Below are positions 7,035-46,598 of a stretch of DNA of 46,598 nt, piece by piece. The position numbers and the translations under genes were made by a program. Position 1 is the first letter of the stretch. Each line of letters begins with the position of its first letter. Below the pieces are notes generated by a model. It did not search any database. It was not told where the DNA came from and saw only the letters and a list, made by a program, of their open reading frames with translations. The DNA is taken from NCBI GenBank assembly GCA_018652595.1, contig JABIBU010000018.1, positions 1 to 46,598 of the forward strand, given 5' to 3'. This stretch comes from Candidatus Magasanikiibacteriota bacterium (lineage in GTDB: Bacteria; Patescibacteriota; Patescibacteriia; Magasanikbacterales; UBA922).

Positions 7035-7048
7035 AAGCTAATATTAAT

Positions 7049-8377
7049 TTATTCAACTATAAACTTGCCCCTCACCATCCCCATCCAACAACTAAACCCA
7101 ATCGTACCGACTTCGTCAGGAGTAAACTCAACTATATTTTCACCACGTACAATCTTTTTGCTTATTCCAAAGTCTGGAACAATAATTTTGTTTGTACATC
7201 CAGTAGCACCATCACCATCAATAATCCATTTTACTGGCACATCCTTTTTCAACTTTATCACCTGTGGTTCAAATCCGTAGTAGCCAATCTTTGTTTTTAC
7301 AACCTGCTCATCACCACTTATCTGTGATTCCGAAGTGTTACCACTATTAGCAGTGACACCACTACCAACTCCCAACATTGCTAGGCCTGATTGTAGCGTA
7401 TAAAAGGCAAATACTACTATTAGTATACCAATTATTAGCTGAAAAACAACCTTTTTTTTGTTTTTTGCACGACTACTAGCAATGCCAAGTGTCAAGAGTA
7501 TTGGCAAGGTACCGAGAGCAAACAAAAACATAGTAAATGCCCCGACCCAAAAACTACCAGATGACAAAGCAAAAAGTTGCATACTCTGAGTAAAACCACA
7601 CGGCAAAAAGAAGGTTATTCCACCAAGTAAAATTGGTGCCAGTTTATGTTCAGATTCTTTTATCCTGTTCCAAGTCTTCATTATTCCACGCGGCATTCTA
7701 ATTCCGACTGAAGATATAGAAGGAAACAAGCCAACAATATTCAATCCCAACCATGCCAAAATTACAGCCAAAACAACAGTCATTATAGCTGTGACTCTGA
7801 GCGAAATACTAAACCAACCACCAACCATTCCCAAAAGCCCACCCAGAACGAAGAAGGTTGCTAGGCGACCCAGATGAAATATCAAATGCGGTCTAACACT
7901 GGCTTTGTAAAAACTACCCTGCGTCTTATACTTGGAAGCAAATGACATCACCACCGCACCCACAATTGCCAAGCAAGTGGACATAGACGCTACAATTCCC
8001 ACTACAAAAGCCATACCAAAACTAACCTCGCTTGCATCAATTTCAAGTAATCTCATCACACCAATCCATTTCAAATACTTAAACACTATATAGATTCCCA
8101 AAAGCGACAAAAAAGCATAAAACCATTGTGTTTTATTAGCTTTTAGCTGCTTTTTTATAGGCTCTTCCGAAGCATCATAACCTAATTTTTTTATCTTTTC
8201 TATCACCTCAGGAATGTTCAGGTTGCCCCTATAACTAATTTTGGCTGTTTTCTTTTTGCTACACACAACCACATGATCTATTTCTTTAATTTCATTTAAT
8301 TCATCAGTTATTATTATTTCACACGAAGTGCAGGTCATACCCGCAATATGTACTATTTTTTTATTTTTCTTAGACAT
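7049..8377 (-). CDS. HMA domain - TauE/SafE-like (UreH/CcdA-type) membrane domain - C-terminal cupredoxin-like domain fusion
   Basis: GMTCTSC at the N-terminus; six-TM-like core with LPCGFTQSMQL; C-terminal GYYGFEPQVIKLKKDVPVKWIID...FTPDEVGTIGFSCWMGMVRGKFIVE. Confidence 0.85.
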   Translation of the reverse strand: MSKKNKKIVHIAGMTCTSCEIIITDELNEIKEIDHVVVCSKKKTAKISYRGNLNIPEVIEKIKKLGYDASEEPIKKQLKANKTQWFYAFLSLLGIYIVFKYLKWIGVMRLLEIDASEVSFGMAFVVGIVASMSTCLAIVGAVVMSFASKYKTQGSFYKASVRPHLIFHLGRLATFFVLGGLLGMVGGWFSISLRVTAIMTVVLAVILAWLGLNIVGLFPSISSVGIRMPRGIMKTWNRIKESEHKLAPILLGGITFFLPCGFTQSMQLFALSSGSFWVGAFTMFLFALGTLPILLTLGIASSRAKNKKKVVFQLIIGILIVVFAFYTLQSGLAMLGVGSGVTANSGNTSESQISGDEQVVKTKIGYYGFEPQVIKLKKDVPVKWIIDGDGATGCTNKIIVPDFGISKKIVRGENIVEFTPDEVGTIGFSCWMGMVRGKFIVE

Positions 8378-8389
8378 AAATTAATTAAT

Positions 8390-8845
8390 TTAAGTAGATA
8401 CTTTATACTTTTCGTCAATTATTTTTTGAATTTCTTCCAGGTGCTCAAGTCCGACTTCTTCGGCAATTGCTGGTGCAAAATACTTTTTCAAATATTTATT
8501 ACCATGACCCTCCAATATTTCACCAATACACTCGCCACATGGATGTACGCCATTTACAATGTCTTCTAGACAACTACAGGTCGCACCCTCACCATGTCCA
8601 GGTGTCTTTTCAATACAATATGTACAAGGTGTGACTAGACAACACGCATAATCACCCTGAGCAATTAGCTTACTTATAATAGAATCCCGTTGCTCTAAGA
8701 AAGACAACCTCTGCCCTTCCATGTCCATCTCGCCCATCAATATATGGCCAAAACTCATCATACCCATTATCAGGAATGACGCAGTTAGTAGCACTGATAA
8801 AACTATTATAACACGTAATTGCCATTTTTGTTTCTTATTTTCCAT
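8390..8845 (-). CDS. Membrane-anchored Cys-rich protein of the copper cluster, unknown function
   Basis: N-terminal TM followed by DYACCLVTPCTYCIE...ATCSCLEDIVNGVHPCGECIGE. Confidence 0.8.
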   Translation of the reverse strand: MENKKQKWQLRVIIVLSVLLTASFLIMGMMSFGHILMGEMDMEGQRLSFLEQRDSIISKLIAQGDYACCLVTPCTYCIEKTPGHGEGATCSCLEDIVNGVHPCGECIGEILEGHGNKYLKKYFAPAIAEEVGLEHLEEIQKIIDEKYKVST

Positions 8846-8862
8846 AATTTATAGTTTTAATT

Positions 8863-9339
8863 TTAGTAAAGCCCAAATACTTCAGTCCCGGTGGCAGTGA
8901 GGGAATAAATTTTGAATGGCTCTATTTTTTTACCAGGCATACCTGGAGACCCGGCTGGCATATCTGGCAAGGCTATTCCAGAAATATCTGGCCTGTCTTT
9001 TAGTAGCTGATCAACAACCTCTATAGGAATGTGACCCTCGACCACATAATCATCCACTATCGTAGTGTGACAACTTTCCATGTTGACAGGAACACCATAT
9101 TTTTCCTTTACACTATTCATATCCTTTGTGCTTTTTACTTCCACATCATAACCATTTTTTTCTAGATAAGAAATATACTTTACACAACAACCGCACAGAG
9201 GTGATTTGTAAACTACAGCCTTCTTTAGGTTTTCAGTGTCTTTGTTGTTTCCAGAATTATTACCCGCCAAAACAAAACCTATTCCCAAGAGTAACAAACT
9301 AAAGATAACAAGACCTATTAATAATTTATTTGATTTCAT
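8863..9339 (-). CDS. DUF411-family metal-associated protein
   Basis: VVYKSPLCGCCVKYISYLEKNGYDVEV...VPVNMESCHTTIVDDYVVEGHIPIEVVDQLL...ALPDMPAGSPGMPG. Confidence 0.88.
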   Translation of the reverse strand: MKSNKLLIGLVIFSLLLLGIGFVLAGNNSGNNKDTENLKKAVVYKSPLCGCCVKYISYLEKNGYDVEVKSTKDMNSVKEKYGVPVNMESCHTTIVDDYVVEGHIPIEVVDQLLKDRPDISGIALPDMPAGSPGMPGKKIEPFKIYSLTATGTEVFGLY

Positions 9340-9343
9340 AAGA

Positions 9344-9895
9344 TTATTTTATTCTACATATCCCTGGTGTACATATTTTTTTTGACACTTTATGAATAGA
9401 ATATAGTAATATCAAAATTGATACCAAACTAAATTCTACTCCACGCAAAGGTAGCCACGATAAGACGGTGGTCGCTGTACTCAACCCAAGTACAGTAGAC
9501 AAAACTACCGACCCGCAAGAAGCACAACCCACACCCAAAAATCCCAAAAGAATCCCTGAGGCTCCCACCCCTCGAATTTGCTGAGTCTTCGCTCGATTAC
9601 GAAAATAATATACAACCAAAATGACATTAATAGAGGACAAAAGAGCCAGTATGATAAGCAAAAGAAATGACAAGGGGGTAAAATTTTCATTAAATTTTAT
9701 GAATGAGTAAAATAATATTTTACTCCCCTGACCAAAACTATACACATCTGAATTAAAAACTACATTCCACAAAGTCATGTTCGTTAGCCAGTGTGCAACC
9801 AACACAAATAGCAACACAACACCAAGACCAACAAACCAGTAGGTCTTAATTTTATAGATTCTCTGTAGTGATTGCAAAATGTAATCAATCCTCAT
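9344..9895 (-). CDS. Multi-TM membrane protein with conserved GVGCASCGS motif
   Basis: Hydrophobic ORF, LGFLGVGCASCGSVVLSTVLG; packed between cluster genes. Confidence 0.75.
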   Translation of the reverse strand: MRIDYILQSLQRIYKIKTYWFVGLGVVLLFVLVAHWLTNMTLWNVVFNSDVYSFGQGSKILFYSFIKFNENFTPLSFLLLIILALLSSINVILVVYYFRNRAKTQQIRGVGASGILLGFLGVGCASCGSVVLSTVLGLSTATTVLSWLPLRGVEFSLVSILILLYSIHKVSKKICTPGICRIK

Positions 9896-9906
9896 ACTTT
9901 CTCAAT

Positions 9907-10683
9907 TTATTTCAACAACGGATCAATCATTGCTTTCAATTGTCCGAATGGATAAGCACCTGATACTGGAATAGTCTGCCCATCTTCAGTAATGATCACA
10001 GAATAAGGAGTACCACGCAAACCAGCAGCGGTAGCCTCATTCAAATCAGACTGAACTTTATCTGCATACTTACCAGACTCAAGACAATTTTCAAACTTGC
10101 CAACATTCAAACCAACATATTCAGCAATTTTGGGTAATTCAGCAATATTTAACCCATCATTGGATGGTGTGATCTCATACAAACGATCTGCATATTTCCA
10201 AAAACCATCATTACCACCTAACTCACTAGCGCATTCCATTGCCTCAGCTTCTTTTCTGGCTTTTCTATGAAGAGAGTCCAATGGTGCGTGTTTATACACC
10301 CAACGAACCTGATCTCCGTACCCATCCATTACCTCAAGCATAGAGTCATGAAATCTTTTGCAAAATGGACATTCTGAATCAGAAAATTCTACAATTGTAA
10401 TTGGAGCGTCTACATTTCCTCTGATGTGATCGTCTGAAGTAATTTCAGCTAGAGCAATTTTTGTATTGCCCACACTCGGAGGTGCTGTAGGAGCTTTTGC
10501 CACTTGTGTTGGTTTGGCATTACCAGCCAAATCTGCTTCATAATTTTCGGCATCTACTGAACTCCCATTCATTACAATCCCCAACAAGATAAAAAATCCA
10601 ATTGCAAACATTACCAGGAGTCCACCCATCATTCCACCCACAAAAGTTAGTTTTGGTGATAATTTACTTAATTCTTCTTTCAT
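9907..10683 (-). CDS. DsbA-family thioredoxin-fold protein, membrane-anchored
   Basis: N-terminal TM; DAPITIVEFSDSECPFCKRFH (CxxC) ... GLRGTPYSVI cis-Pro motif. Confidence 0.92.
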   Translation of the reverse strand: MKEELSKLSPKLTFVGGMMGGLLVMFAIGFFILLGIVMNGSSVDAENYEADLAGNAKPTQVAKAPTAPPSVGNTKIALAEITSDDHIRGNVDAPITIVEFSDSECPFCKRFHDSMLEVMDGYGDQVRWVYKHAPLDSLHRKARKEAEAMECASELGGNDGFWKYADRLYEITPSNDGLNIAELPKIAEYVGLNVGKFENCLESGKYADKVQSDLNEATAAGLRGTPYSVIITEDGQTIPVSGAYPFGQLKAMIDPLLK

Positions 10684-27335: not shown

Positions 27336-28343
27336 ATGTCTCAAAAACTAATAAAAAAATACTTACAAGATTTTTTGGAACATCTAGAGATTGAAAAAAA
27401 TCGAAGTGAAAAGACGATTCAAAATTATGATTTTTATTTGAATAGATTTGTTGGTTGGCTTGGGGACAAAAAGCCAGAAGCAATAACCGGAGAAAAAATG
27501 CGCAAATTTCGTCTCTGGCTCAATCGACTAGTAGACGTACATGGTGATCCCCTGAAAAAAAACACCCAAAATTACCATCTTATTGCCTTGCGCTCGTTTT
27601 TGAAATACTTGGCAAAAAGAGATGTAGACACCCTAGCTCCAGAAAAAATAGAACTAATGAAAATGCCAGACAGAGAGGTCAGCTTTCTTGAAGGTGGCGA
27701 CTTGGATAGACTACTGGAAGCTCCTTTCAAAAATATTAATAATAAAAGTCTAGAAAAAAATGAAAAAAAAGCATCCAACACGGTCTTGATTGCCTTTCGA
27801 GATAAGGCCATATTGGAACTGCTCTTTTCTGCTGGCTTGCGTGTATCAGAGCTATCCAAATTAAAAATCCAAAATATAAATTTGAAAAAAGAAGAATTTA
27901 CTATATTGGGAAAGGGTGGCAAATCAAGAGTAGTCTTTTTATCAGAACAATCTAAATATTGGCTAAAAAAATACTTAGAAGCCAGAAAAGACATGAACCC
28001 TTATATGTTCATCTCCCATGACAAAAGATCTGGTAATTCTAAGACAGTAAAAGTAAAAGGTAAGCGAGTTGAGGTAGATGACCGGCCCATCACACCACGC
28101 TCTGTACAACGCATGGTACAAAAATACGCTCGTGCTGCTGGCATTACCAAACCAGTAACCCCTCATACCCTGCGCCACTCTTATGCGACTGATCTACTAC
28201 AAAATGGGGCCGACATCAGGAGCGTACAGACCATGTTGGGGCATTCATCAATAACGACAACCCAACTGTATACCCATATTACTGATAGAGGGCTAAAGAA
28301 TATTTATAAAAAATTTCATGGCAAAAAGAGAGGAGAGGGTTGA
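27336..28343 (+). CDS. XerC/D-like tyrosine recombinase
   Basis: N-terminal SAM-like domain; RDKAILELLFSAGLRVSELSKL; HTLRHSYATDLLQNGADIRSVQTMLGHSSITTTQLYTHI. Confidence 0.93.
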   Translation: MSQKLIKKYLQDFLEHLEIEKNRSEKTIQNYDFYLNRFVGWLGDKKPEAITGEKMRKFRLWLNRLVDVHGDPLKKNTQNYHLIALRSFLKYLAKRDVDTLAPEKIELMKMPDREVSFLEGGDLDRLLEAPFKNINNKSLEKNEKKASNTVLIAFRDKAILELLFSAGLRVSELSKLKIQNINLKKEEFTILGKGGKSRVVFLSEQSKYWLKKYLEARKDMNPYMFISHDKRSGNSKTVKVKGKRVEVDDRPITPRSVQRMVQKYARAAGITKPVTPHTLRHSYATDLLQNGADIRSVQTMLGHSSITTTQLYTHITDRGLKNIYKKFHGKKRGEG

Positions 28344-28387: not shown

Positions 28388-28459
28388 GGGCCTGTAGTTC
28401 AATGGATAGAATAGAAGCCTTCTAAGCTTTAGATCGAGGTTCGATCCCTCGCAGGCCCA
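28388..28459 (+). tRNA. tRNA-Arg (anticodon TCT)
   Basis: GGGCCTGTAGTTCAATGGATAGAAT-AGAAGCCTTCTAAGCTTTA-GATCGAGGTTCGATCCCTCGCAGGCCCA. Confidence 0.92.
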
Positions 28460-28506
28460 CAATTTAATAATTCTCTAGGTTCTAGGCCCAAGGCCCACCA
28501 GCCCTG

Positions 28507-30644: not shown

Positions 30645-32246
30645 TCACTCTGGGGTGGCCAACGGGGGCTGACCCAAGACTTTCTGTTGAGTTAAGAATA
30701 AATCTTTGAATTCATCGTGTGGTTCTATTGCAACTACTTTCTTACCATTTACCCAAATTCTTTTGATAACCATCAAAATCCACTCTCTCTGGTCTTCTGG
30801 TGTGCTGTTAATCCGCCAAAATTTGCCGAAATTCTTAAGAAACTTCTCAGTCTGGCGTAATCTATCCTTTACCAGTTTATCTTTGTTTTTCGCGGTAATT
30901 CCTTGTTTTTCAAATTGTTTTATTTTTCTCTGAATTTCTCCAACATCTCTTCTGTATTTATCATCGTCCAATTCTCCCATCTCATACATAGTGTTAAGTC
31001 TTTTCCGCCTACCCTCTAATTGATTAACCTCTTTTTGTAAATCGCTAGAACCCAAGTATTCTTTTAGACTAACCTCAAGATTTTTTAATACTTTCTCTAT
31101 AATATCATCAGGTAGTTTTAACCCCTCCATAAAGTCTAAAACCTGTTTATCAATAATATCACAAGATACCGATGGTTGTTTGCAGTCTTTGTATTCCCTC
31201 CTAATTTTACAACCATAATTCAAAACTTCACCAATCTTACGACCAGATCTCTCACAATACATTTTGGGAAGCATCTTAGTATTGGGGTTATCAGTTTTGT
31301 TCTTATCAAAATGTTTCCTACATTTGTTACAATAAAGTAATCCTTGAAGCAGATAAAATCTGTGTTGGGCTACTGGTCTTCCATTAGTATTACGGCGCTC
31401 CTCAATTTTTTCTTGAACCTTATCAAAAACGACTTTTGAAACTATGGGCTTATGTGCGCCCTTTAGTTCTGGGTAACCCCTACGAGGAGAATATATAAGA
31501 CCAATATAGGTTTTATTTTTCAAAATGTCTTTTATGGAGCCGTAGCCGAACGGATTTCCATTTTTTGTTTTTATTCCTAGTCTGTTTATTTCAAAAGCTA
31601 TATCAGCGAAAGACTTTTGCCCTGTGGAATATAAATTAAATATGCTTTTAACTATCTTAACCTCTTCTTTGTGTACCCTCCACTCATCTTCATAAATAGG
31701 TCTGTCTTTTGTTGCGTCAAATCCTAATCTTTTTTTATAATAACCAAAAGGTGGATTACCTACCGGCTTTCCCTGTCTTCTTTTTTCCTGTAAAGCATCT
31801 TTTACCCAAAAACTTAATTGCTTGGAATAGTAGGCATCAAACAATTCGTTTATGCCCTCATTCAAAAAAGCAGACGGTTTTCTCCAGTCTCCAAAGGGTT
31901 GGGTAACCGATATGACATCAATGTCCAACTTTTCACGAAGATTTTCTTTATTTTTTCGTGCATCACTAACATTACGAGCAAAACGAGAAGTATGGTATAC
32001 CAAAATAACACCAAATTTCTTTTTTTGAGCATCATCCATCATCCTCAAAAAGTCGCTTCTCTTTTTCGTTGAAGTACCAGAAATTAGATCTTTGTATTGA
32101 TCTACTATATTTAACCCTTCTCGTTTAGCGTATTCTCTTATAACCCTCTCTTGATTTTCTGGCGAAAAACCCTTGTCTTGTTCTTCCGTGCTTTCACGAA
32201 TGTAATAGACGGCTTTTAATTGTTTATGTGAAATTTGTTTTTTCAT
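30645..32246 (-). CDS. Large serine recombinase (site-specific integrase)
   Basis: AVYYIRESTEEQDKGFSPENQ (catalytic Ser), YHTSRFARN, Recombinase domain, zinc ribbon GLLYCNKCRKHF, coiled coil. Start MKKQISHKQL chosen because the -10 box lies at 32273-32278. Confidence 0.95.
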   Translation of the reverse strand: MKKQISHKQLKAVYYIRESTEEQDKGFSPENQERVIREYAKREGLNIVDQYKDLISGTSTKKRSDFLRMMDDAQKKKFGVILVYHTSRFARNVSDARKNKENLREKLDIDVISVTQPFGDWRKPSAFLNEGINELFDAYYSKQLSFWVKDALQEKRRQGKPVGNPPFGYYKKRLGFDATKDRPIYEDEWRVHKEEVKIVKSIFNLYSTGQKSFADIAFEINRLGIKTKNGNPFGYGSIKDILKNKTYIGLIYSPRRGYPELKGAHKPIVSKVVFDKVQEKIEERRNTNGRPVAQHRFYLLQGLLYCNKCRKHFDKNKTDNPNTKMLPKMYCERSGRKIGEVLNYGCKIRREYKDCKQPSVSCDIIDKQVLDFMEGLKLPDDIIEKVLKNLEVSLKEYLGSSDLQKEVNQLEGRRKRLNTMYEMGELDDDKYRRDVGEIQRKIKQFEKQGITAKNKDKLVKDRLRQTEKFLKNFGKFWRINSTPEDQREWILMVIKRIWVNGKKVVAIEPHDEFKDLFLTQQKVLGQPPLATPE

Positions 32247-32272
32247 ATAACCATTGACTATTTGCATCATCC

Positions 32273-36108: not shown

Positions 36109-37260
36109 TTAAAAAAGTTTATCTTGACGTTTTGTGTCTATATCAAAAGTTTTTAATAATCTGTCTACCACATCTCTAGATGTGACATTTTTGAGTTTAT
36201 TAAAATCAACATATTTAGATAGTTTCTGTAATCTATTTCTGTAATTATAATAAGTCGTTCTACTTTTATACTTTGTCATAAAATATCTTTTTACATATTG
36301 TAACCCACCTTCTTGTAACAAAGCTAATGCCATAATAATTTCACTTTTAACAGTTATATCTTTGCAGTTTTTATCTAAAAAGGCATCGATGACGGGCTTA
36401 TTATTTTGCGATAAAAATACGTAGTTTTTTAGAGGATGATTATAGATTTCGTCTATCTCTTTTTGAAGTATTTTCTTCCAAAAATGTTGGTTAAAAATAT
36501 TTTTTAAGGTGGGCTCATCCCCGTTTAAGTATGGCTTAAATTTTTGTTTAGTGGCTTGTTTACCTCTCATCGTCAATTCACATCTTAATACTTCAGACAC
36601 CAACACACCTTTTTTATTTTTATATCTGTTAGCTCTGTATGCTTTTGCTATGTCTAGCTCTTTTTGAGTTACTGCATTATTAGCAACCTCAGGTAGTTTA
36701 GAATATAATTTGAATGTTGTGGCCTTATTACTAAAATATATTTCTTTACCACCATTTTCTGTGTCTTTCATAGCCACACACCTTTGTTTAGATCTAAAAC
36801 GATCATCAAATGGTGTCAAAGCTTCTAGCGCAAGATTACAACTACATAAGTCCGTGAGATTAACAATACCACCAATTGCAACAACAGTAGGAATTGAACT
36901 TAAGATTTGATCTCTAAAAATAACTACACCAATTTCCCTGAAAAACTGGAGTAATTTATCTACAAATACATCAAGCACATCGCCTGATATAATTGTTACA
37001 TTTTCTCCAATTAGAAACTTAGGTACGGACAATTCTATTACGAAATAAGTTATCTCTGGATAGATAAAATGTTCCTCTATCCAGTATTTCGGCATATACC
37101 TTCTTTGCTCTTTTTGTTCGTTTCTCCAAGTATTATTTGTGCAAACAACCCTGTTTCTTTTAACATCCCGATCAATATCTTTTATATTTATATTTTCCTG
37201 AAAATAAAAACTACCCTCCGGTCTATCATATCTAAATTTTAGTTTTAGGGTATCTATCAT
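36109..37260 (-). CDS. Phage/plasmid replication protein of the gene II/X type (rolling-circle initiator-like)
   Basis: MIDTLKLKF N-terminus, FVIELSVPKFLIGENVTIISGDVLDVFVDKLLQFFREIGVVIF, later VLRCELTMRGKQATKQKF; family recognised by overall pattern only. Confidence 0.65.
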   Translation of the reverse strand: MIDTLKLKFRYDRPEGSFYFQENINIKDIDRDVKRNRVVCTNNTWRNEQKEQRRYMPKYWIEEHFIYPEITYFVIELSVPKFLIGENVTIISGDVLDVFVDKLLQFFREIGVVIFRDQILSSIPTVVAIGGIVNLTDLCSCNLALEALTPFDDRFRSKQRCVAMKDTENGGKEIYFSNKATTFKLYSKLPEVANNAVTQKELDIAKAYRANRYKNKKGVLVSEVLRCELTMRGKQATKQKFKPYLNGDEPTLKNIFNQHFWKKILQKEIDEIYNHPLKNYVFLSQNNKPVIDAFLDKNCKDITVKSEIIMALALLQEGGLQYVKRYFMTKYKSRTTYYNYRNRLQKLSKYVDFNKLKNVTSRDVVDRLLKTFDIDTKRQDKLF

Positions 37261-37261
37261 A

Positions 37262-37365
37262 CTGGAGGAGACTTTTATCAGAGATAATCAGGTGGCTGAC
37301 TTAACGACAGGACAAGCCTCCTCCAAGAGGGAACCTGAATGTAAGACAGCCGTCTCATTATCTCT
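37262..37365 (-). other. Structured region upstream of the replication gene: candidate replication origin or RNA regulator
   Basis: AGAGATAAT/ATTATCTCT outer pair, GGCTG/CAGCC inner pair, local CCTC..GAGG hairpin; CTCCTCCA next to the start codon is complementary to TGGAGGAG in the structure. Confidence 0.5.
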
Positions 37366-37527
37366 ATTATCTTGTTTTTTCCAGTATTCTAAAAAGAACT
37401 CCGTTATTCGTTCGGCTATTAAGTCCGTATCATTTTTCTTGTTCTTTTTTGAATACATAAAAACCGTAGCTTATAACTACAGTTTATATCTTGTGGAATA
37501 AATTGTATAAGAAATAACCGAGTACGC

Positions 37528-38322
37528 TTATTTCCTACTCTCCCTGCGTTTAATTGCTAAACTTCTTAATTTGCCAATCTCCCCATCATCTAATAATTCC
37601 CCAGTCTTCTCATTAACTAATCCTCTTAGTAACTTGAGAGAAAGAGATCTGTTGTCATACACCAAATCTTCAATTTCTTTTGACTTGGTTTTTCTACTTC
37701 TTATTTTTGCTAAAGATATTTTTTCTTTTGCGAAGACTTCTATACGCCCTCTTTTCTCAAGATCAACAAAACACATTTGTATATAATCCCACCGTTTTTT
37801 AATTAAATCAATTGCCTCATTTTGTGTAGCATAGGGTGATATACCGATCATTATGGGGTATTTTTTTGATGTTTCGTCCATAAAATCTTCACAAACTTTT
37901 ACATCACAGTCACAACATCCTCTCCTTTCTAAAAAATCTAGACGATACTCATTAAACGAAACTGTATCTTCGATACTGTTATAAAATTGAGTGAACACAT
38001 CGTACTTCCTTTCATTGTATAGAATAAAAATATTAATAAATAATATAATATTCACATTCTTGTATATTTCTGGTATTGGCTCAAGTATCTCACTATATAT
38101 TTTTGTTCTTTGTTTTGGAAAAGTTAAATAATTTGTGTTTTTATATTTGATACCAAAAAGAGACGCTGGTAATCCACGGATAACACGACCAGAAAGATTG
38201 GGCATTTTGATACCATTTTTAGGTATGCCAATTTCTTTTCTAATCTCTAATACCCTATCTATAAAATATCTTTCACGAGTGTATGTTTCAAGATAATTTT
38301 TTAATTTATCAGTAGATTTCAT
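37528..38322 (-). CDS. Hypothetical protein of the putative mobile element
   Basis: Uninterrupted ORF; start trimmed to MKSTDKLKNYLE because the upstream extension runs into the tRNA-His terminator. Confidence 0.7.
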   Translation of the reverse strand: MKSTDKLKNYLETYTRERYFIDRVLEIRKEIGIPKNGIKMPNLSGRVIRGLPASLFGIKYKNTNYLTFPKQRTKIYSEILEPIPEIYKNVNIILFINIFILYNERKYDVFTQFYNSIEDTVSFNEYRLDFLERRGCCDCDVKVCEDFMDETSKKYPIMIGISPYATQNEAIDLIKKRWDYIQMCFVDLEKRGRIEVFAKEKISLAKIRSRKTKSKEIEDLVYDNRSLSLKLLRGLVNEKTGELLDDGEIGKLRSLAIKRRESRK

Positions 38323-38339
38323 TTTTATATATTTATAAC

Positions 38340-38366
38340 AAAAAGGCCGTGATAGGCCTTTTTGTT
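38340..38366 (-). terminator. Terminator downstream of tRNA-His
   Basis: AAAAAGGCC-GTGATA-GGCCTTTTTG. Confidence 0.75.
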
Positions 38367-38388
38367 TAGAGACGATGAGCCCCACTTA

Positions 38389-38465
38389 GGGGTGGCTAAC
38401 GAGAATTGAACTCGTATTGCCGGTACCACAAACCGGAGTAATAACCATTATACCATAGCCACCCC
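38389..38465 (-). tRNA. tRNA-His (anticodon GTG), intact
   Basis: GGGGTGGC acceptor pairs over 8 bp (G-1:C73) with GCCACCCC; CCGGT-TTGTGGT-ACCGG anticodon arm; CGAG-TTCAATT-CTCG T-arm. Confidence 0.93.
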
Positions 38466-38487
38466 TAAAAGGGTCTCTATTTTTATT

Positions 38488-38892
38488 TTATTGTAAATCT
38501 CTCTCTTCTTCAATACTTCCTTTGAATAGGCCTGTATTAAATCCAAGGGTTGTTTTTCTTTTTCTTTTGATATCAGGAATTTCTTCTTTCTCTTTTTCAT
38601 TTACAACTGGTTGTTCATAATCGCTTTCAAGCATATCTATTAGATTTTTGAGGGCATCTTGCTTCTTGTCTAAATGATTGATATACATTTGGTGTGCTCT
38701 AACACTACTAGCATAAGAACTTATTACTAGTACCCCTGTAAAAATCTTTATCATCTCCTCATCTAAACACTTCTTTAATAATCTCTCAACCGATGTATTC
38801 CAAATCTTATATTTTGCAGAATAAGCTGGTTCTTGTGCCAGACTATCTACTTCCTCCAATTTTTGTTTTAGTTTTTGAATAATTTCTTCCAT
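38488..38892 (-). CDS. Hypothetical coiled-coil protein (134 aa)
   Basis: ORF between intact and decayed tRNA-His copies; helical composition. Confidence 0.6.
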   Translation of the reverse strand: MEEIIQKLKQKLEEVDSLAQEPAYSAKYKIWNTSVERLLKKCLDEEMIKIFTGVLVISSYASSVRAHQMYINHLDKKQDALKNLIDMLESDYEQPVVNEKEKEEIPDIKRKRKTTLGFNTGLFKGSIEEERDLQ

Positions 38893-38951
38893 ATGGTGAA
38901 TTTACATTATTCTTATTTTGTTCCAGATCTCTATTGTATCCGACAGAAAGT

Positions 38952-39027
38952 GTTGGGTCAAGAGGAATTGAACCCGTATTGTCGGTACCACAAACCGAAG
39001 TAATAACCATTATACCATGGCCACCCC
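38952..39027 (-). pseudogene. Decayed tRNA-His copy (intact 5' half, broken T-arm/acceptor)
   Basis: GGGGTGGCCATGGTATAATGGTTATTACTTCGGTTTGTGGTACCGACAATAC conserved; the 3' GACCCAAC no longer pairs with GGGGTGGC. Confidence 0.75.
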
Positions 39028-39081
39028 GCAATGAATTTGAATTTGAAAGAAAAATTTCGGCCCGAGGCCGATCAGCCTTGA

Positions 39082-39180
39082 GCAGAGAACCGGTATTGTC
39101 GGTACCACAAACCGAAGTAATAACCCGCCCGCAACACTTGCGCTAGCATGGCGGGCGGACCACTATACCATGGCCACCCC
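39082..39180 (-). pseudogene. Second decayed tRNA-His copy with a palindrome inserted in the D-loop
   Basis: GGGGTGGCCATGGTATAGTGGT-[CCGCCCGCCATGCTAGCGCAAGTGTTGCGGGCGGG]-TTATTACTTCGGTTTGTGGTACCGACAATAC. Confidence 0.78.
39124..39158. repeat. Dispersed GC-rich palindrome, copy 3 (inside the tRNA-His pseudogene)
   Basis: CCCGCCCGCAACACTTGCGCTAGCATGGCGGGCGG. Confidence 0.75.
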
Positions 39181-39236
39181 GATTGAGACTTTTTATAGAA
39201 CGGGCATATTATATACCAAAAAAGCTTTTTTGTCAA

Positions 39237-39953: not shown

Positions 39954-40057
39954 ATGAAATAATTATAACAGAAAAACAGTAAAAACAAAATCTACCAGAT
40001 AGGCAGATTTAAATATCATAATTATTAATTACAAAAACAGCAACAATGAAATATGGA

Positions 40058-40627
40058 CTACTCACCAAAATCCCACATATCATCTGGAGCAACGCTACCT
40101 TCTGGCCCCCAAACACTTTCGTAGCCGGGCACAACAACACTTTCACCAAGAGGGTCTGTGGGCGGGTAATAATCCGTCATATCTTTTTTTACACCCCACT
40201 CGGCCTGGAAAAATCCTCCTCCCCCAGGAGAGTCTATATTTTGCGCTTCAAATAAAGCGTCTTGAACAAAAATAGTAATACTATATGAACTCAAAACTAT
40301 AAGAGTACCTATTACAGCATATTTTATTGTTTTTTGAGCACTCTTTATTTTTTCTTCATCACCACCAGCTGTCATCCAAATAAAGCCAGAGTAGAATATA
40401 TAAACCAAAAATATTGTACCCAAAAGAGATAGGGCGATTCTTATAATATTAACCACAATCATGCGTGGGTCTTCTGCCTGACCAAACGACGCCCCCCTTT
40501 CACCTGCTACAGCCTGTAACTGCGATCCAATCTCTCCAGTGTCTATACCATCACCAGTAGCCAAAACTAACCCCGCGAAAAAAAGCCCTAGCAAGATTAG
40601 AAATATAGAAAAAAATATTTTTTTCAT
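40058..40627 (-). CDS. VirB2/TrbC-like pilin-type membrane protein
   Basis: Signal peptide + IALSLLGTIFLVYIFYSGFIWMTAGGDEEKIKSAQKTIKYAVIGTLIVLSSYSITIFVQ. Confidence 0.85.
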   Translation of the reverse strand: MKKIFFSIFLILLGLFFAGLVLATGDGIDTGEIGSQLQAVAGERGASFGQAEDPRMIVVNIIRIALSLLGTIFLVYIFYSGFIWMTAGGDEEKIKSAQKTIKYAVIGTLIVLSSYSITIFVQDALFEAQNIDSPGGGGFFQAEWGVKKDMTDYYPPTDPLGESVVVPGYESVWGPEGSVAPDDMWDFGE

Positions 40628-40639
40628 AAATACTTACTA

Positions 40640-41035
40640 TTATTGTATATTAACTTTTTGCCCCGTAGCCTGTGTCCCAACAAAAAGAGTGACACTGTAA
40701 GAAAGCAAGATGATGGTCAAACCAATTATGGAGCCCACTATTATCTTCTGTGCTTTTTTTACTTGTTCCTCATCTCCGCGTGAATTGACATACACAAAAC
40801 CACCGTACACAACCAGGGCCAAAAATATTGAGCCAACCACACCCAAGGCTATCTTTAGCACCTCTACTATTATTATTTGTGGTGATGTTGGATTGCCCAG
40901 ACCAGCTGTGTCAGCACCTTCTTTTATCTGTTCTACTACTTGATTTTTTAAGTCTACAGACTGTGTGGTATCAAATAAAAAAAATACACCCAAAAAAGAC
41001 AAGAGTAGCAAAAAGATTGTAAGTTTTTTTTTCAT
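40640..41035 (-). CDS. VirB2/TrbC-like pilin-type membrane protein
   Basis: IALGVVGSIFLALVVYGGFVYVNSRGDEEQVKKAQKIIVGSIIGLTIILLSYSVTLFV. Confidence 0.85.
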   Translation of the reverse strand: MKKKLTIFLLLLSFLGVFFLFDTTQSVDLKNQVVEQIKEGADTAGLGNPTSPQIIIVEVLKIALGVVGSIFLALVVYGGFVYVNSRGDEEQVKKAQKIIVGSIIGLTIILLSYSVTLFVGTQATGQKVNIQ

Positions 41036-41044
41036 AAATTATGA

Positions 41045-41437
41045 TTATACAGATCCACTAGCAGTTCTGGATAGAATAGCCAAAACTACAAAATTGGTAA
41101 TACTATAGGAGGCCAGCACTATCACCAAGCCTATGATCGATGATATTATAATTTTTTGAGCTTTTTTTATTGTCTCTTCTTCACCACGAGCGGTCATCCA
41201 GAGATAGCCCGCGTAGACCATTAGAACCAAAAACACAACACCCACCATGGACAAGGCCCCCTTTACAGCAACTCCTATAGTCTCCGCCAAAGTGGTATCC
41301 GTAGCCCTTTCATAGCCCGCTTTAGTGGCCGCACTGTCTACCAGACCGACACCAAGAATATCTTTTCTTTGGGCCAAAGCCGGACTCACTAATAAAAACA
41401 CCACCAACAGACTGAGAAAAAAACTTTTTATTTTCAT
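41045..41437 (-). CDS. VirB2/TrbC-like pilin-type membrane protein
   Basis: ALSMVGVVFLVLMVYAGYLWMTARGEEETIKKAQKIIISSIIGLVIVLASYSITNFV. Confidence 0.87.
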   Translation of the reverse strand: MKIKSFFLSLLVVFLLVSPALAQRKDILGVGLVDSAATKAGYERATDTTLAETIGVAVKGALSMVGVVFLVLMVYAGYLWMTARGEEETIKKAQKIIISSIIGLVIVLASYSITNFVVLAILSRTASGSV

Positions 41438-41479
41438 ATTAATTATATTGTTATACTATTATGTATCTATTTTTTTACT

Positions 41480-41839
41480 CTAAAATCTGCCTGTTACAAA
41501 CTTAGTTATTGCATAGGCACTCAAAGTAATAATTAGACCAATTATTGTACTTATTATAATTTTTTGAGCTTTTTTTATTGTCTCTTCTTCACCACGAGCG
41601 GTCATCCAGAGATAGCCCGCGTAGACCATTAAGATCAAGAATATAAGCCCAACCAAACTAAGAGCAGCATTTATTCCAGTACCGACCACATCTTCTATAT
41701 TTTTTTCTGTTACACCAGCCTTGCCTGCCACTGAGCCCGCAACACTGTTGGCGCTACCTAGCCCTGCTGCAAAAATAGGAGTGACACAAGAAAACAAAAC
41801 AAATGCAATCGTGGTCAATAAAATAATTTTTTTCATAAT
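41480..41839 (-). CDS. VirB2/TrbC-like pilin-type membrane protein
   Basis: ALSLVGLIFLILMVYAGYLWMTARGEEETIKKAQKIIISTIIGLIITLSAYAITKFV; start trimmed approximately to MKKIILL. Confidence 0.87.
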   Translation of the reverse strand: MMKKIILLTTIAFVLFSCVTPIFAAGLGSANSVAGSVAGKAGVTEKNIEDVVGTGINAALSLVGLIFLILMVYAGYLWMTARGEEETIKKAQKIIISTIIGLIITLSAYAITKFVTGRF

Positions 41840-41859
41840 TTTAAATTTAATAATTATAA

Positions 41860-42573
41860 TTAGAAAGGGTTCCATTCAGCATTTTCCCACTTATCACTAA
41901 ATTCCCATTCGCTATTTTCTATTTTTATTTGTACTGCCTTTTGGCATGCCTTTTCACCTTCATCGCCCTTTAAATCAGGCACCCACTGACCATCCTCTGG
42001 AATACTTATATCTTGAGTCGAATAATCTTTTATTTGTACCAGCACATCACATTGTGCTTTTGTCAGTAAGCTTCCTGTCCAACCAGACTGACCAACCCCA
42101 GCAAAACCACCCTCTGTCTCCCACCTGTCGAGACAGCAACCGGTTGGGTCTCCCTCAACAGCATCTGGAACGTCCTTGTCCGTGGTAGATGATCCAGACT
42201 GTCCAGATATTATTCTACTTGTTATAAAATTAGTCATCGCATATGCACCCACAACTATTAATAACCCTATTATAGCACCAATTACAGTACTTTTTGCTTT
42301 TGTAATGCTTTCTTCATTTCCTCTGGCAAGCAACCACTTGAAACCACCATAAAAAATAATTATAAAAAATACTATTGCCACGAGAGCTAGAGCGGCCTTT
42401 AGTACATAACCACCTACAACTGTTATATCAGACTCTACCACCCCAGTCTTCGTCACAGCCTTGCTAAGCTCATCTTGAGCATCTGTGGCTTTCAATTTTT
42501 GGGCAAAAGCAAATGAAGGTAGTAATAGCACTATCATTGCTATAAAAATTATAATTGTTTTTTTTATTTTCAT
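41860..42573 (-). CDS. VirB2/TrbC-like pilin-type protein with C-terminal ectodomain
   Basis: ALALVAIVFFIIIFYGGFKWLLARGNEESITKAKSTVIGAIIGLLIVVGAYAMTNFI followed by ~100 aa with GCCLDRWE; start trimmed to MKIKKTI. Confidence 0.85.
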   Translation of the reverse strand: MKIKKTIIIFIAMIVLLLPSFAFAQKLKATDAQDELSKAVTKTGVVESDITVVGGYVLKAALALVAIVFFIIIFYGGFKWLLARGNEESITKAKSTVIGAIIGLLIVVGAYAMTNFITSRIISGQSGSSTTDKDVPDAVEGDPTGCCLDRWETEGGFAGVGQSGWTGSLLTKAQCDVLVQIKDYSTQDISIPEDGQWVPDLKGDEGEKACQKAVQIKIENSEWEFSDKWENAEWNPF

Positions 42574-42577
42574 AATT

Positions 42578-43426
42578 TTATTTTTCTTCCCAAACACACA
42601 CACCAGTTTGGGCCTGCATTTCTTGGCAGTCTTCTTTGTCTTTTAGACTCCAGCACTCTACTTCATTATCAATATTCGGATTTTTTAAAATACATTCGTC
42701 TTCGTTAATTGGAACACAGTACAGTTCACAAACGTCGTTTTGAACATCATTACCAATAATACCACACACATCACCAGGAAACGGAAAGCAGGTGCCAGTA
42801 CATATCTCAGACAATCCTACACCAGTCGCATGACAACCATCTTCATCTTCATCTTCATCTTCACCATCTTCATCTTCACCATCCGCACTCTCCACCTCAC
42901 CACAACACATCTCATCACTAACAGAACAAAGTTTCTTTTCCCAGGTATCTCCCTTGTTTTCTATATCCTCATACTCACCTGGTATGGTACATTCGGTAAT
43001 TTTCTTACACTCCCAATCAGGATGCTCAGTAGCACAAGTTTTTGCCTCTGTATTACCAGTATTAGTCTCGCCCATTATACCTGTAAAAACAAAGTTGGTA
43101 ATGGCATAGGAGGCCACCACTATTATAATACCAATAATGGCTCCAGTAATAGTGTCCATTGCTTTCTTTTCCATTTCTTGATTTCCCCTGGCCAACATCC
43201 AAGTGACGCCACCAAAAAGCATGAGGGCAAAAAACAAAACACCAATCATTGATAGACCTGCACCTATTAAATTTCCCACTATATTTGTTATCTCACCAGA
43301 CTTAAGCCCTGCCGCACCACCAGTCGCCTTATATCCATAGTCAGTCGCCAACACAGGAACAACAAAAAAACTAATCACACCAAACATAACCAGGAATATA
43401 ATTAATTTTTTATTTATTTTTGACAT
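42578..43426 (-). CDS. VirB2/TrbC-like pilin-type protein with acidic, Cys-rich C-terminal ectodomain
   Basis: GLSMIGVLFFALMLFGGVTWMLARGNQEMEKKAMDTITGAIIGIIIVVASYAITNFV, then CATEHPDWECKKITEC...DEMCCGEVESADGEDEDGEDEDEDEDGC...; start trimmed to MSKINKK. Confidence 0.88.
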   Translation of the reverse strand: MSKINKKLIIFLVMFGVISFFVVPVLATDYGYKATGGAAGLKSGEITNIVGNLIGAGLSMIGVLFFALMLFGGVTWMLARGNQEMEKKAMDTITGAIIGIIIVVASYAITNFVFTGIMGETNTGNTEAKTCATEHPDWECKKITECTIPGEYEDIENKGDTWEKKLCSVSDEMCCGEVESADGEDEDGEDEDEDEDGCHATGVGLSEICTGTCFPFPGDVCGIIGNDVQNDVCELYCVPINEDECILKNPNIDNEVECWSLKDKEDCQEMQAQTGVCVWEEK

Positions 43427-43437
43427 AACAAATATTT

Positions 43438-44247
43438 TTATTCCCACTTACACAGATTAGTTTTATCTTCTACTAAAACACAGTTATCCTCATCCACAAC
43501 ACATACTTCATCCATGTTTATACCATCTTTCACCTGACAAAAGTCCTCTTTTACACAGTATTGACTACAGAGAGCATTAACAAAACTATCTTCCGCCTCA
43601 CAATTATCAGCAGTACAATCTTGTAAACAAAAATCATTAATTGATTTGGTCCCAGCCTGACATGATGCTTTTGCCTTACAGCATTTTATCTCGTCACCCT
43701 GACCAGGAGCATTGCACAGGTCATCATCTGCTTTTTCACCTTCTGCAGTGCTACAGTCGACCGAAATCCTACAAGACCAATCATCACTTTTTTGTGTGGT
43801 CGCACAAGTATCACAACCAGCAAAAGTGCCGGATTTACCAGAACACTTGGAGGAATCACTGGAAGACCCACCAGATGAATAAGAGCTACCCTCTATTCCT
43901 TTGAAAACAAAGTTGGTAATTGCATAAGAAGACGCCACTATTATAATACCTATGATAGCTCCGGTAATAGTATTGAGGGCCTTTTTTTCCATTTCTTGAT
44001 TGCCTCTGGCCAACATCCAAGTAATACCACCAAAAAGCATGAGAGCAAAAAATAAAATTCCCACCAGAGTAAGGCCGGCACCAATTAAATTTCCTACTAT
44101 AACAGGAATTGTGTCTGATGTCGTAAGTCCTGCCTTATCGCTTGTTGCCTTTAGGCCCAGATCGCCCGCCAGTGCAGGGGTAACAAAAAAACAAATGAAC
44201 CCAATCGCTATAAAAAAAATAATTAATTTTTTATTTATTTTGGACAT
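43438..44247 (-). CDS. VirB2/TrbC-like pilin-type protein with Cys-rich C-terminal ectodomain
   Basis: GLTLVGILFFALMLFGGITWMLARGNQEMEKKALNTITGAIIGIIIVASSYAITNFVF, then CDTCATTQKSDDWSCRISVDC...DEIKCC.... Confidence 0.88.
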   Translation of the reverse strand: MSKINKKLIIFFIAIGFICFFVTPALAGDLGLKATSDKAGLTTSDTIPVIVGNLIGAGLTLVGILFFALMLFGGITWMLARGNQEMEKKALNTITGAIIGIIIVASSYAITNFVFKGIEGSSYSSGGSSSDSSKCSGKSGTFAGCDTCATTQKSDDWSCRISVDCSTAEGEKADDDLCNAPGQGDEIKCCKAKASCQAGTKSINDFCLQDCTADNCEAEDSFVNALCSQYCVKEDFCQVKDGINMDEVCVVDEDNCVLVEDKTNLCKWE

Positions 44248-44267
44248 GAATATTTTTAAAACTATTT

Positions 44268-45305
44268 TTACTTATACTCGCAAATTTCTTCCGCATTGGG
44301 ACAATCAAACTCGTCTAATGTTTGGCAAAGATCAGAGTCAGGACCAGAATAAACACAGGATCCTGATTCACCAGAACACCACAACTCTACATCAAAATCT
44401 AATAGGCTTATTGGAGATACCTCCCCACAAGCCTTACTTGGCGCAAGAGCACTGTTGGACTGACACTTTTCACTTAACTTTTCACTTGCTTTCGCTTTAC
44501 AAGTTGCCTCGCTCCCACCTTCTGTAGCAGTACAACAAATCTCATCGTTTGCATCGCATTTATTTTTTATCCAGTTCGTACCTGGCCCAACCCCCAGAGC
44601 ATTATAATCCGACAAGCCACATGCGGTCAACTTCTGACAGCTCCAATTGGGATTATGCTGTTCACACAAACCTAGCGTTTTTGGTTCAGTGCCATCATCT
44701 TCATCCTCTTTTGGTTTTTCGCCATCACCTTCTATGGCCGTACAACAAATCTCATCGTTTGCATCGCATTTACTTTTTATCCAATTCATACCTGGCCCAA
44801 CCCCCAGAGCATTATAATCCGACAAGCCACATGCGGTCAACTTCTGACAGCTCCAATTGGGATTATGTTTTTTACACGGACTCACTATTTTTGGTGAGTC
44901 TATATCTGTGACAGAGGACGAAGAGGATGAAGGAGTATTTAAGTTCTGACCAACATTACTAAAAAGAAAGCCAACCAAGACATAAGAAGACAACACTATT
45001 ACCACCCCAATAGTTGCCCCAATCATTATTCCTCCGGCTTTTTTTTCTCTTTCTTGATTGCCCGCAGCACTCATCCATACGACACCACCATAGACCATTA
45101 GTGCGAAAAATAAAATACCAACCAATGACAAAACAGCACCAAGCAGTTCACCTATCATTGTTTGCAAAGAAGCACCCTTAAAATTAGTTATGGGTGTTTG
45201 GTCAGCTGTAACATCTATTCCATACTGAGCATGAACAACAAAAAAAGGTGTAAATAGTATTACAATAATTATTACGAGAAGGTAAAACTTTTTTGACATA
45301 GCCAA
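44268..45305 (-). CDS. VirB2/TrbC-like pilin-type protein with duplicated Cys-rich modules
   Basis: VLSLVGILFFALMVYGGVVWMSAAGNQEREKKAGGIMIGATIGVVIVLSSYVLVGFLF, then two near-identical HNPNWSCQKLTACGLSDYNALGVGPG(M/T)NWIK(S/N)KCDANDEICCTA modules. Confidence 0.9.
   Translation of the reverse strand: MAMSKKFYLLVIIIVILFTPFFVVHAQYGIDVTADQTPITNFKGASLQTMIGELLGAVLSLVGILFFALMVYGGVVWMSAAGNQEREKKAGGIMIGATIGVVIVLSSYVLVGFLFSNVGQNLNTPSSSSSSVTDIDSPKIVSPCKKHNPNWSCQKLTACGLSDYNALGVGPGMNWIKSKCDANDEICCTAIEGDGEKPKEDEDDGTEPKTLGLCEQHNPNWSCQKLTACGLSDYNALGVGPGTNWIKNKCDANDEICCTATEGGSEATCKAKASEKLSEKCQSNSALAPSKACGEVSPISLLDFDVELWCSGESGSCVYSGPDSDLCQTLDEFDCPNAEEICEYK
44530..44657 (-). repeat. Intragenic duplication, copy A (128 nt)
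   Basis: gtacaacaaatctcatcgtttgcatcg...ctccaattgggattatg; differs from copy B at about 3 positions. Confidence 0.95.
44740..44867 (-). repeat. Intragenic duplication, copy B (128 nt)
   Basis: Same 128-nt block offset by 210 nt (an in-frame multiple of 3). Confidence 0.95.
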
Positions 45306-45319
45306 TAAATATCTACTTC

Positions 45320-45724
45320 TTATTCCACATCACTATACTGAAATCCCCCACCTTTGGTTGCCTCCAAAATACGAGTAGTCACAAAACGAGTAATAGAATA
45401 AGCTGTTAAAATAATAACTAAACCTATTACCGCTGCCATTAATATTTTTTGTGCATCTTTTACATTTTCTTCATTACCACCAGCAGTCATCCATTTGAAC
45501 CCTGCATATAAAACTATCACCAAAGCGATCGTACCCAAAAGCCCCAAAACAACTCTAACCATCATCGCCACTGTAAACCTAACATCCTGACTTCCAAGAC
45601 CTGAGTGCGCCCCATAGTCCAGACCTATATAGGGCCCAGTTCCTGCCTTTACTGCTGACAAGAAAAAAAACATTCCTACTACAAAAAATAGTAGAAACAA
45701 CCCAACTACGATTCCTTTTTTCAT
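45320..45724 (-). CDS. VirB2/TrbC-like pilin-type membrane protein
   Basis: VLGLLGTIALVIVLYAGFKWMTAGGNEENVKDAQKILMAAVIGLVIILTAYSITRFV. Confidence 0.87.
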   Translation of the reverse strand: MKKGIVVGLFLLFFVVGMFFFLSAVKAGTGPYIGLDYGAHSGLGSQDVRFTVAMMVRVVLGLLGTIALVIVLYAGFKWMTAGGNEENVKDAQKILMAAVIGLVIILTAYSITRFVTTRILEATKGGGFQYSDVE

Positions 45725-45798
45725 ATTGTGTATATTAATAATTACTTTGCTCCACCCCCGAAGAGGCGGAACATAATAATAATTACTATAAAGCAGTC

Positions 45799-46242
45799 TT
45801 ATTCTACTGGAAATTCGCTATATGCGTCAAACTCAGAAGTAGCCGTATAAAGTTGCATCAATACGAATCTAGCGATGGCGTAGGCACTAAGAATAATGGC
45901 CAAACCAATAACACCAGAAAATATAATTTTGCGAGCTTCACCAACCTTTTCTTCGTTACCACCAGCAGTCATCCAACGAAAGCCACCCCAAAGTACGATT
46001 ACTACAGCTACGATACCAAGAAGCCCTAAAGCTACGTTGATAATACTAGCTATTGTAGTTCTCACATCTTCCTTTCCAAGACCTGTCTCATCTGCATAAC
46101 CAATACCAAAAGGGTCTACAGGTGCCACAGGATCATCATCAGCTACTACTGGCAATGCAGGGACAAATAATAATCCCATCACAAAAACAGCAGCAATAGT
46201 CATTACAATTTTATATTTAACTAATTTTGTCAATAAATACAT
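45799..46242 (-). CDS. VirB2/TrbC-like pilin-type membrane protein
   Basis: ALGLLGIVAVVIVLWGGFRWMTAGGNEEKVGEARKIIFSGVIGLAIILSAYAIARFV; GGGGGTGAG SD upstream. Confidence 0.87.
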   Translation of the reverse strand: MYLLTKLVKYKIVMTIAAVFVMGLLFVPALPVVADDDPVAPVDPFGIGYADETGLGKEDVRTTIASIINVALGLLGIVAVVIVLWGGFRWMTAGGNEEKVGEARKIIFSGVIGLAIILSAYAIARFVLMQLYTATSEFDAYSEFPVE

Positions 46243-46292
46243 GTTCTCACCCCCTTTCTTTTAAAGGATCTCATATTTTATTTTTTATACTT

Positions 46293-46598
46293 TTATGGAA
46301 TATTAAGACCTGTCGTAGGACCAGAACTTCCTTGTTCTCTCGCACCAATTCCTTCTAGTACCAACCCTAGTATAGCATAACTACCAAAAATTAGAAACAG
46401 TCCAATGACTGCCCACATCATAGTTTGGCTACCTTTTTTTACCTTTTCTGCACTGCCGGCAGAAGTAAGCCAAAGGAAACCACCATAGACAAAAACCAAT
46501 AGTGTAACTGATCCCAAAATACTCATTCCTTTAGAAACTATTTTACCAAGCAAGATTCTAATATCTGTAGTACCAAGAGGATTGTCCAATTTTACAAA
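46293..46598 (-). CDS. VirB2/TrbC-like pilin-type membrane protein, N-terminus cut by window edge
   Basis: GMSILGSVTLLVFVYGGFLWLTSAGSAEKVKKGSQTMMWAVIGLFLIFGSYAILGLVL; reading frame open to the window end. Confidence 0.82.
   Translation of the reverse strand, partial: FVKLDNPLGTTDIRILLGKIVSKGMSILGSVTLLVFVYGGFLWLTSAGSAEKVKKGSQTMMWAVIGLFLIFGSYAILGLVLEGIGAREQGSSGPTTGLNIP

Follow-up and report, generated by a model that had tools for sequence, protein, structure and literature searches.

A tandem array of eleven pilin genes keeps its subunit order among related Patescibacteria

Comparison of core sequences indicates that eleven tandem pilin genes at the end of a patescibacterial contig are an old, differentiated set, whose subunits are orthologous position by position within their family of genomes. 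Reciprocal best BLAST hits were used to pair the pilin cores of 16 family arrays, one from the window and the others from 15 genomes in 14 genera, and of seven arrays from the rest of the order. The window was perfectly colinear with each of the 15 other family genomes (Kendall tau 1.00, one of the comparisons comprising three pairs only), and mean tau was 0.99 over 118 family pairs and 0.83 between families. For 161 of the 187 pilins of the family, the best hit lay in another genome and not in the pilin's own array. On this positional orthology we rejected recent amplification of a single pilin; positions 5 and 6, with 78% core identity, reflect a recent local duplication. We favour, with moderate confidence, the reading that the genes specify a surface apparatus of multiple, ordered subunits that is tied to the patescibacterial type IV secretion system (T4SS).

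The window analysed here is a whole contig (C18) of 46,598 bases, from an assembly of 964,590 bases in 27 contigs that is 95% complete. The alignment of position-2 orthologs yielded 79 named loci, mostly from Ca. Magasanikbacteria with some from Uhrbacteria, Falkowbacteria, Komeilibacteria and Buchananbacteria, and the window was therefore placed near Ca. Magasanikbacteria. We take all of these groups to belong to class ABY1 of the Patescibacteria. This placement agrees with the episymbiont-type lineage proposed in the first-pass annotation, and the source organism is an ultrasmall bacterium that is probably attached to a host. The same annotation had described eleven successive minus-strand open reading frames (ORFs) of one architecture in an array that continues past the window, and reading the ORFs bore out both points: eleven consecutive ORFs, spaced by 4–74 bp, occupy 40058–46598 on the minus strand, ten of them complete and one truncated where the contig stops (Table 1). 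All have two hydrophobic helices and a Y/F-G/A-G-x-x-W motif followed by an E-x-x-x-K-A loop, and the N-terminus is hydrophobic wherever it is present. Some of the listed ORF starts were too long, and the likely starts of four genes are 45299, 43426, 42573 and 41836. Long C-terminal extensions (119–230 aa) are carried by four proteins and are very cysteine-rich in three.

Table 1. Members of the pilin array and associated features, in order from the contig end.
Feature	Coordinates	Strand	Length (aa)	Description	PF18895 (bits)
Pilin position 1	46293..46598	-	101 seen	5' end cut by contig end; without extension; position-1 orthologs in 15 family genomes	32.0
Pilin position 2	45799..46242	-	147	Most conserved subunit	44.5
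Pilin position 3	45320..45724	-	134	Plain	34.7
Pilin position 4	44268..45299	-	343	230-aa C-terminal extension, 20 Cys	35.9
Duplicated 70-codon unit inside position 4 extension	44516-44895	-		Recent 210-bp repeat, DNA 94% identical over module	
Pilin position 5	43438..44247	-	269	154-aa extension, 18 Cys	29.6
Pilin position 6	42578..43426	-	282	168-aa extension, 16 Cys and acidic linker	32.0
Pilin position 7	41860..42573	-	237	119-aa extension, GCC motif at its start, 4 Cys	28.5
Pilin position 8	41480..41836	-		Plain	35.1
Pilin position 9	41045..41437	-	130	Plain	38.7
Pilin position 10	40640..41035	-	131	Plain	27.9
Pilin position 11	40058..40627	-	189	67-aa charged C-terminal tail without Cys	27.5
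Terminator-like hairpin and T-run	39988..40010	-		After last pilin gene; consensus scan only	

Core identity of position 2 was 63–81% with its family orthologs and 70–78% with those of other families of the order, and invariant columns were present in both of its alignments (A1 and A3). On this conservation, position 2 is a candidate scaffold or major pilin. AlphaFold2 predicted a confident helical hairpin for it (helices 60–92 and 97–142, core pLDDT about 90) and a similar core hairpin for position 6. The extension of position 6 was modelled with low confidence, so we claim no fold for the extensions.

The C-terminal extensions changed far faster than the cores. Among orthologous extended pilins, median core identity was 57.5%, while the z-score of the extensions against shuffled sequences had a median of 1.0 and exceeded 5 in 8% of 151 ortholog pairs, which makes them almost unalignable by a test that has low power for short cysteine-rich sequences. 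The N-terminal extensions of first pilins exceeded the same value in 51% of 152 pairs, and the extension of position 7 could be aligned with its orthologs in L059 and L063. Relaxed constraint could account for the divergence. Cysteine counts were almost always even: among 750 distinct, complete pilin ORFs in the loci retrieved, cysteines after the core were absent in 555, even in number in 192 and odd in three. Since 192 of the 195 cysteine-bearing C-termini were even, against 228 even and 138 odd counts in control ORFs, the extensions are probably disulfide-bonded, hence extracytoplasmic. A Pfam scan of ten extensions returned an SH3_3 domain and a sub-threshold DUF7107, both in one relative. 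We also considered whether a six-cysteine module (C-x8-C-x5-C-x20-C-x6-CC) might be defensin-like or cell-wall-binding and rejected the idea, as it had no Pfam match; its sole PDB match, a CIR protein (E 0.017), was partial and unconvincing. A related remark on cysteine-rich surface proteins in the candidate phyla radiation concerns other large proteins in Peregrinibacteria (PMC4736985).

The first-pass annotation had called these proteins VirB2/TrbC-like pilins and proposed a profile search of each. They are indeed pilins of a T4SS type: PF18895 ("Type IV secretion system pilin", T4SS_pilin) matched the ten complete proteins at 27.5–44.5 bits and the truncated one at 32.0 bits, all above the curated cut-off of 26.6 bits and far beyond chance. 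Direct similarity to VirB2/TrbC, however, was sub-threshold in every window protein. Four of ten matched PF04956 (TrbC/VirB2) at E 0.0011 to 0.04, but none reached its cut-off of 27.9 bits (best 19.6 bits), and a PF04956 search of the organism's own genome gave zero matches. In hhalign comparisons, position 2 scored no better than shuffled controls against a small profile of five R388-type VirB2 proteins; the position 6 alignment gave a weak match to VirB2 in the second helix only (E 0.0039, a value obtained without a control). Foldseek returned zero PDB matches at E ≤ 0.001, and because a hairpin is a weak query we read this as neither for nor against VirB2. Direct VirB2/TrbC membership was rejected on the missed PF04956 cut-off; the R388-type profile and the PDB fold search gave no help in deciding it. 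A remote kinship is plausible, because 12 of 16 position-2 orthologs matched PF04956 at E up to 0.05 (best 9.5e-6). With conjugative pilins of the VirB2/TrbC type (PF04956; R388 TrwL) the array proteins share a signal peptide, a two-helix hairpin, a charged loop and this weak profile similarity. No conjugation system that we know of has a dozen decorated subunits in a set order. A plasmid search with position 2 as the query gave zero matches, and a scan of genome contigs with position 4 gave zero confirmed loci.

We looked for T4SS genes in the window and in the rest of the assembly. The absence of an ATPase gene from the window, pointed out in the first-pass annotation, held among the window ORFs scanned, none of which was of virB4 type, but the ATPase is not missing from the genome: a VirB4 lies on contig C6 (G000:C6:16159-17070, PF19044 99.8 bits). 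By ORF reading, a PrgI/VirB3-like protein precedes this virB4 and a ComF-like gene follows it. There was also a VirD4-family match on contig C3 (37.3 bits). The array on C18 is therefore not next to virB4 on C6. As a pilin lay near virB4 in 1135 of 1948 assemblies (PMC12102498), such a separation does not exclude T4SS membership.

Pilin domains were also found fused to larger proteins on contigs C20, C10 and C4 (L018, L019 and L017) and in relatives, one of them with a Big_5 Ig-like domain, so the domain can serve as an anchor outside any filament. Relatives have adjoining pairs of frames, of about 650 aa and several thousand aa. On C4, RecG-like and RadA-like ORFs, recognised by eye, adjoin a pilin-domain protein (L017:2542-3864) that is cut by the contig end; its C-terminal part resembles by eye a cysteine peptidase or cell-wall hydrolase, and Pfam reports the pilin domain only.

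The fusions, the distance from virB4, the null PDB fold search and the weak VirB2/TrbC homology all count against a T4SS-linked apparatus. The first three would suit membrane-anchored display proteins, in which the two-helix domain is a mere anchor and neither a filament nor a T4SS is needed. Yet at least five of the eleven proteins (positions 1-3, 8-10) would bring hardly anything to display, the order of the subunits and the strong conservation of position 2 favour co-assembly, and the family takes its name from T4SS pilins, arrays of which form part of the T4SS cluster in Ca. S. epibionticum (PMC10633639). We regard mere display as unlikely, though it is the chief alternative to the apparatus.

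The surroundings of the array were conserved as well. Reading ORFs in L050, L052 and L053 gave the order galU, solute-binding lipoprotein, pilin array, and in some relatives a pilin with a cysteine-rich N-terminal extension also lies between galU and the array. Among 57 genomes of the order, 51 yielded the SBP-type lipoprotein, and pilins adjoined it in 25 of the 26 loci retrieved. A search for it in the organism's own assembly gave no match; as the contig ends inside the array, we take this as an assembly gap. Judging from the relatives, one to three further pilins, the lipoprotein and galU probably lie beyond base 46598. A conserved solute-binding lipoprotein might mean that the locus is an import conduit or a DNA- or nutrient-uptake pilus and not a contact organ; ABY1 T4SS genes are accompanied by comF, recG and radA (PMC12102498), and uptake from the host has been speculated on (PMC12857230). 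However, we recognised no ABC permease in the locus stretches read, and uptake would not predict unalignable cysteine-rich extensions, which leaves this alternative improbable.

Under the T4SS-linked surface apparatus that we favour, the pilins would be Sec-inserted so that the two termini face outwards and the charged loop inwards. Position 2 would form the main scaffold, the other plain pilins would be structural or specialised minor subunits, and the VirB4 ATPase would drive assembly. Positions 4–7 may present domains, stabilised by disulfides, that make contact with a variable partner, for which the host-cell envelope is the simplest candidate, and the fast change of the cysteine-rich domains is as expected for parts touching a partner cell. 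Granted such an apparatus, its physical form is somewhat likely to be a heteromeric pilus or pilus-like stub. The first-pass annotation had proposed a multi-subunit filament with a major subunit and decorated minor ones; positional orthology upholds the differentiated subunits, including the decorated ones, whereas the filament and its plausible role in host-cell contact are inferences. We advance tentatively, and consider rather doubtful, a more specific version: a heteromeric T4SS pilus of about a dozen non-interchangeable, ordered subunits, in which receptor-binding domains on the decorated pilins, fast-evolving and disulfide-bonded, determine the host cell to which an ABY1 patescibacterium attaches, and the conserved gene order reflects an assembly or stoichiometry programme.

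How ordinary such arrays are can be judged from their spread. PF18895 proteins occurred in 144 of 145 genomes of the class, commonly in around ten copies per genome; the position-2 profile matched 267 of 291 genomes across the phylum, and the loci of individual relatives held about 12 (G108), 13 (G130) and 15 (G027) pilins. A published survey counted 441 arrays of 2–11 pilins in 383 patescibacterial assemblies (PMC12102498), and one pilin array is essential in the cultured epibiont Ca. S. epibionticum (PMC10633639), so the bare finding is already known. The paralog number, singled out at first as far beyond one major pilin, is correctly so described but is not exceptional. The surveyed arrays resemble ours in Pfam family, phylum, tandem divergent pilins and a VirB4 in the genome. 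They differ in that relatives of the window have up to 15 consecutive pilins, where the published maximum is 11, and in that our array is placed by galU and the solute-binding lipoprotein, not by virB4. In the main text of that survey we found neither cysteine-rich C-terminal extensions nor a conserved order described. The Ca. S. epibionticum cluster also belongs to an epibiotic patescibacterium and likewise comprises several predicted T4SS pilins, six according to PMC12857230, but it sits inside a T4SS gene cluster in another class. In open papers, supplements aside, we found no description of a conserved subunit order with a galU/lipoprotein locus and fast-diverging, even-cysteine extensions.

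The multiplied VirB2 and VirB5 of the Bartonella Trw system, as cited in PMC12857230 and PMC12102498, offer a further likeness, in that several sequence-variable VirB2-type copies have a proposed role in host-cell binding; those copies are described as amplified variants, whereas the window pilins are positional orthologs kept across genera. Variation through amplified copies, proposed for Bartonella, has been applied to Patescibacteria in PMC12102498. That our copies are versions of a single major pilin that can stand in for one another, serving antigenic or host-range variation, is very improbable and largely refuted for the whole array, since the many tandem copies, the recent pair at positions 5 and 6 and the duplicated module in position 4 are outweighed by positional orthologs in a kept order across genera, which are not lineage-specific expansions. 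The conserved order is also an argument for regarding the "pilin arrays" of the literature, in this lineage at least, as differentiated machines instead of a reserve of copies for antigenic variation.

The array bears on host recognition and attachment in patescibacteria. Should contact be made by the decorated positions, genomes would directly reveal which parts are host-specific: the conserved core and order would identify the proteins to be compared, and the variable extensions would be the binding candidates. Even without a filament, the array defines surface proteins that are shared throughout the lineage and divide clearly into conserved and variable parts.

Elsewhere in the window, next to the array, 36112–39181 encodes a replication protein of G2P-like type (PF05144, E 7e-5) along with two unknown ORFs. 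These lie beside a tRNA-His gene (38389–38462), and partial tRNA-His copies are present at 38963–39044 and 39080–39181; the stretch resembles a small tRNA-associated element of inovirus or satellite type. Other traces of mobile elements are a tyrosine recombinase (27336–28340) beside tRNA-Arg (28388–28460) and a large serine recombinase (30648–32270). At 4842–10683, one cluster comprises a P-type ATPase with a heavy-metal domain, a DsbD_2-cupredoxin protein, a DUF411 protein and a DsbA-like thioredoxin, and is probably a copper and thiol-redox unit.
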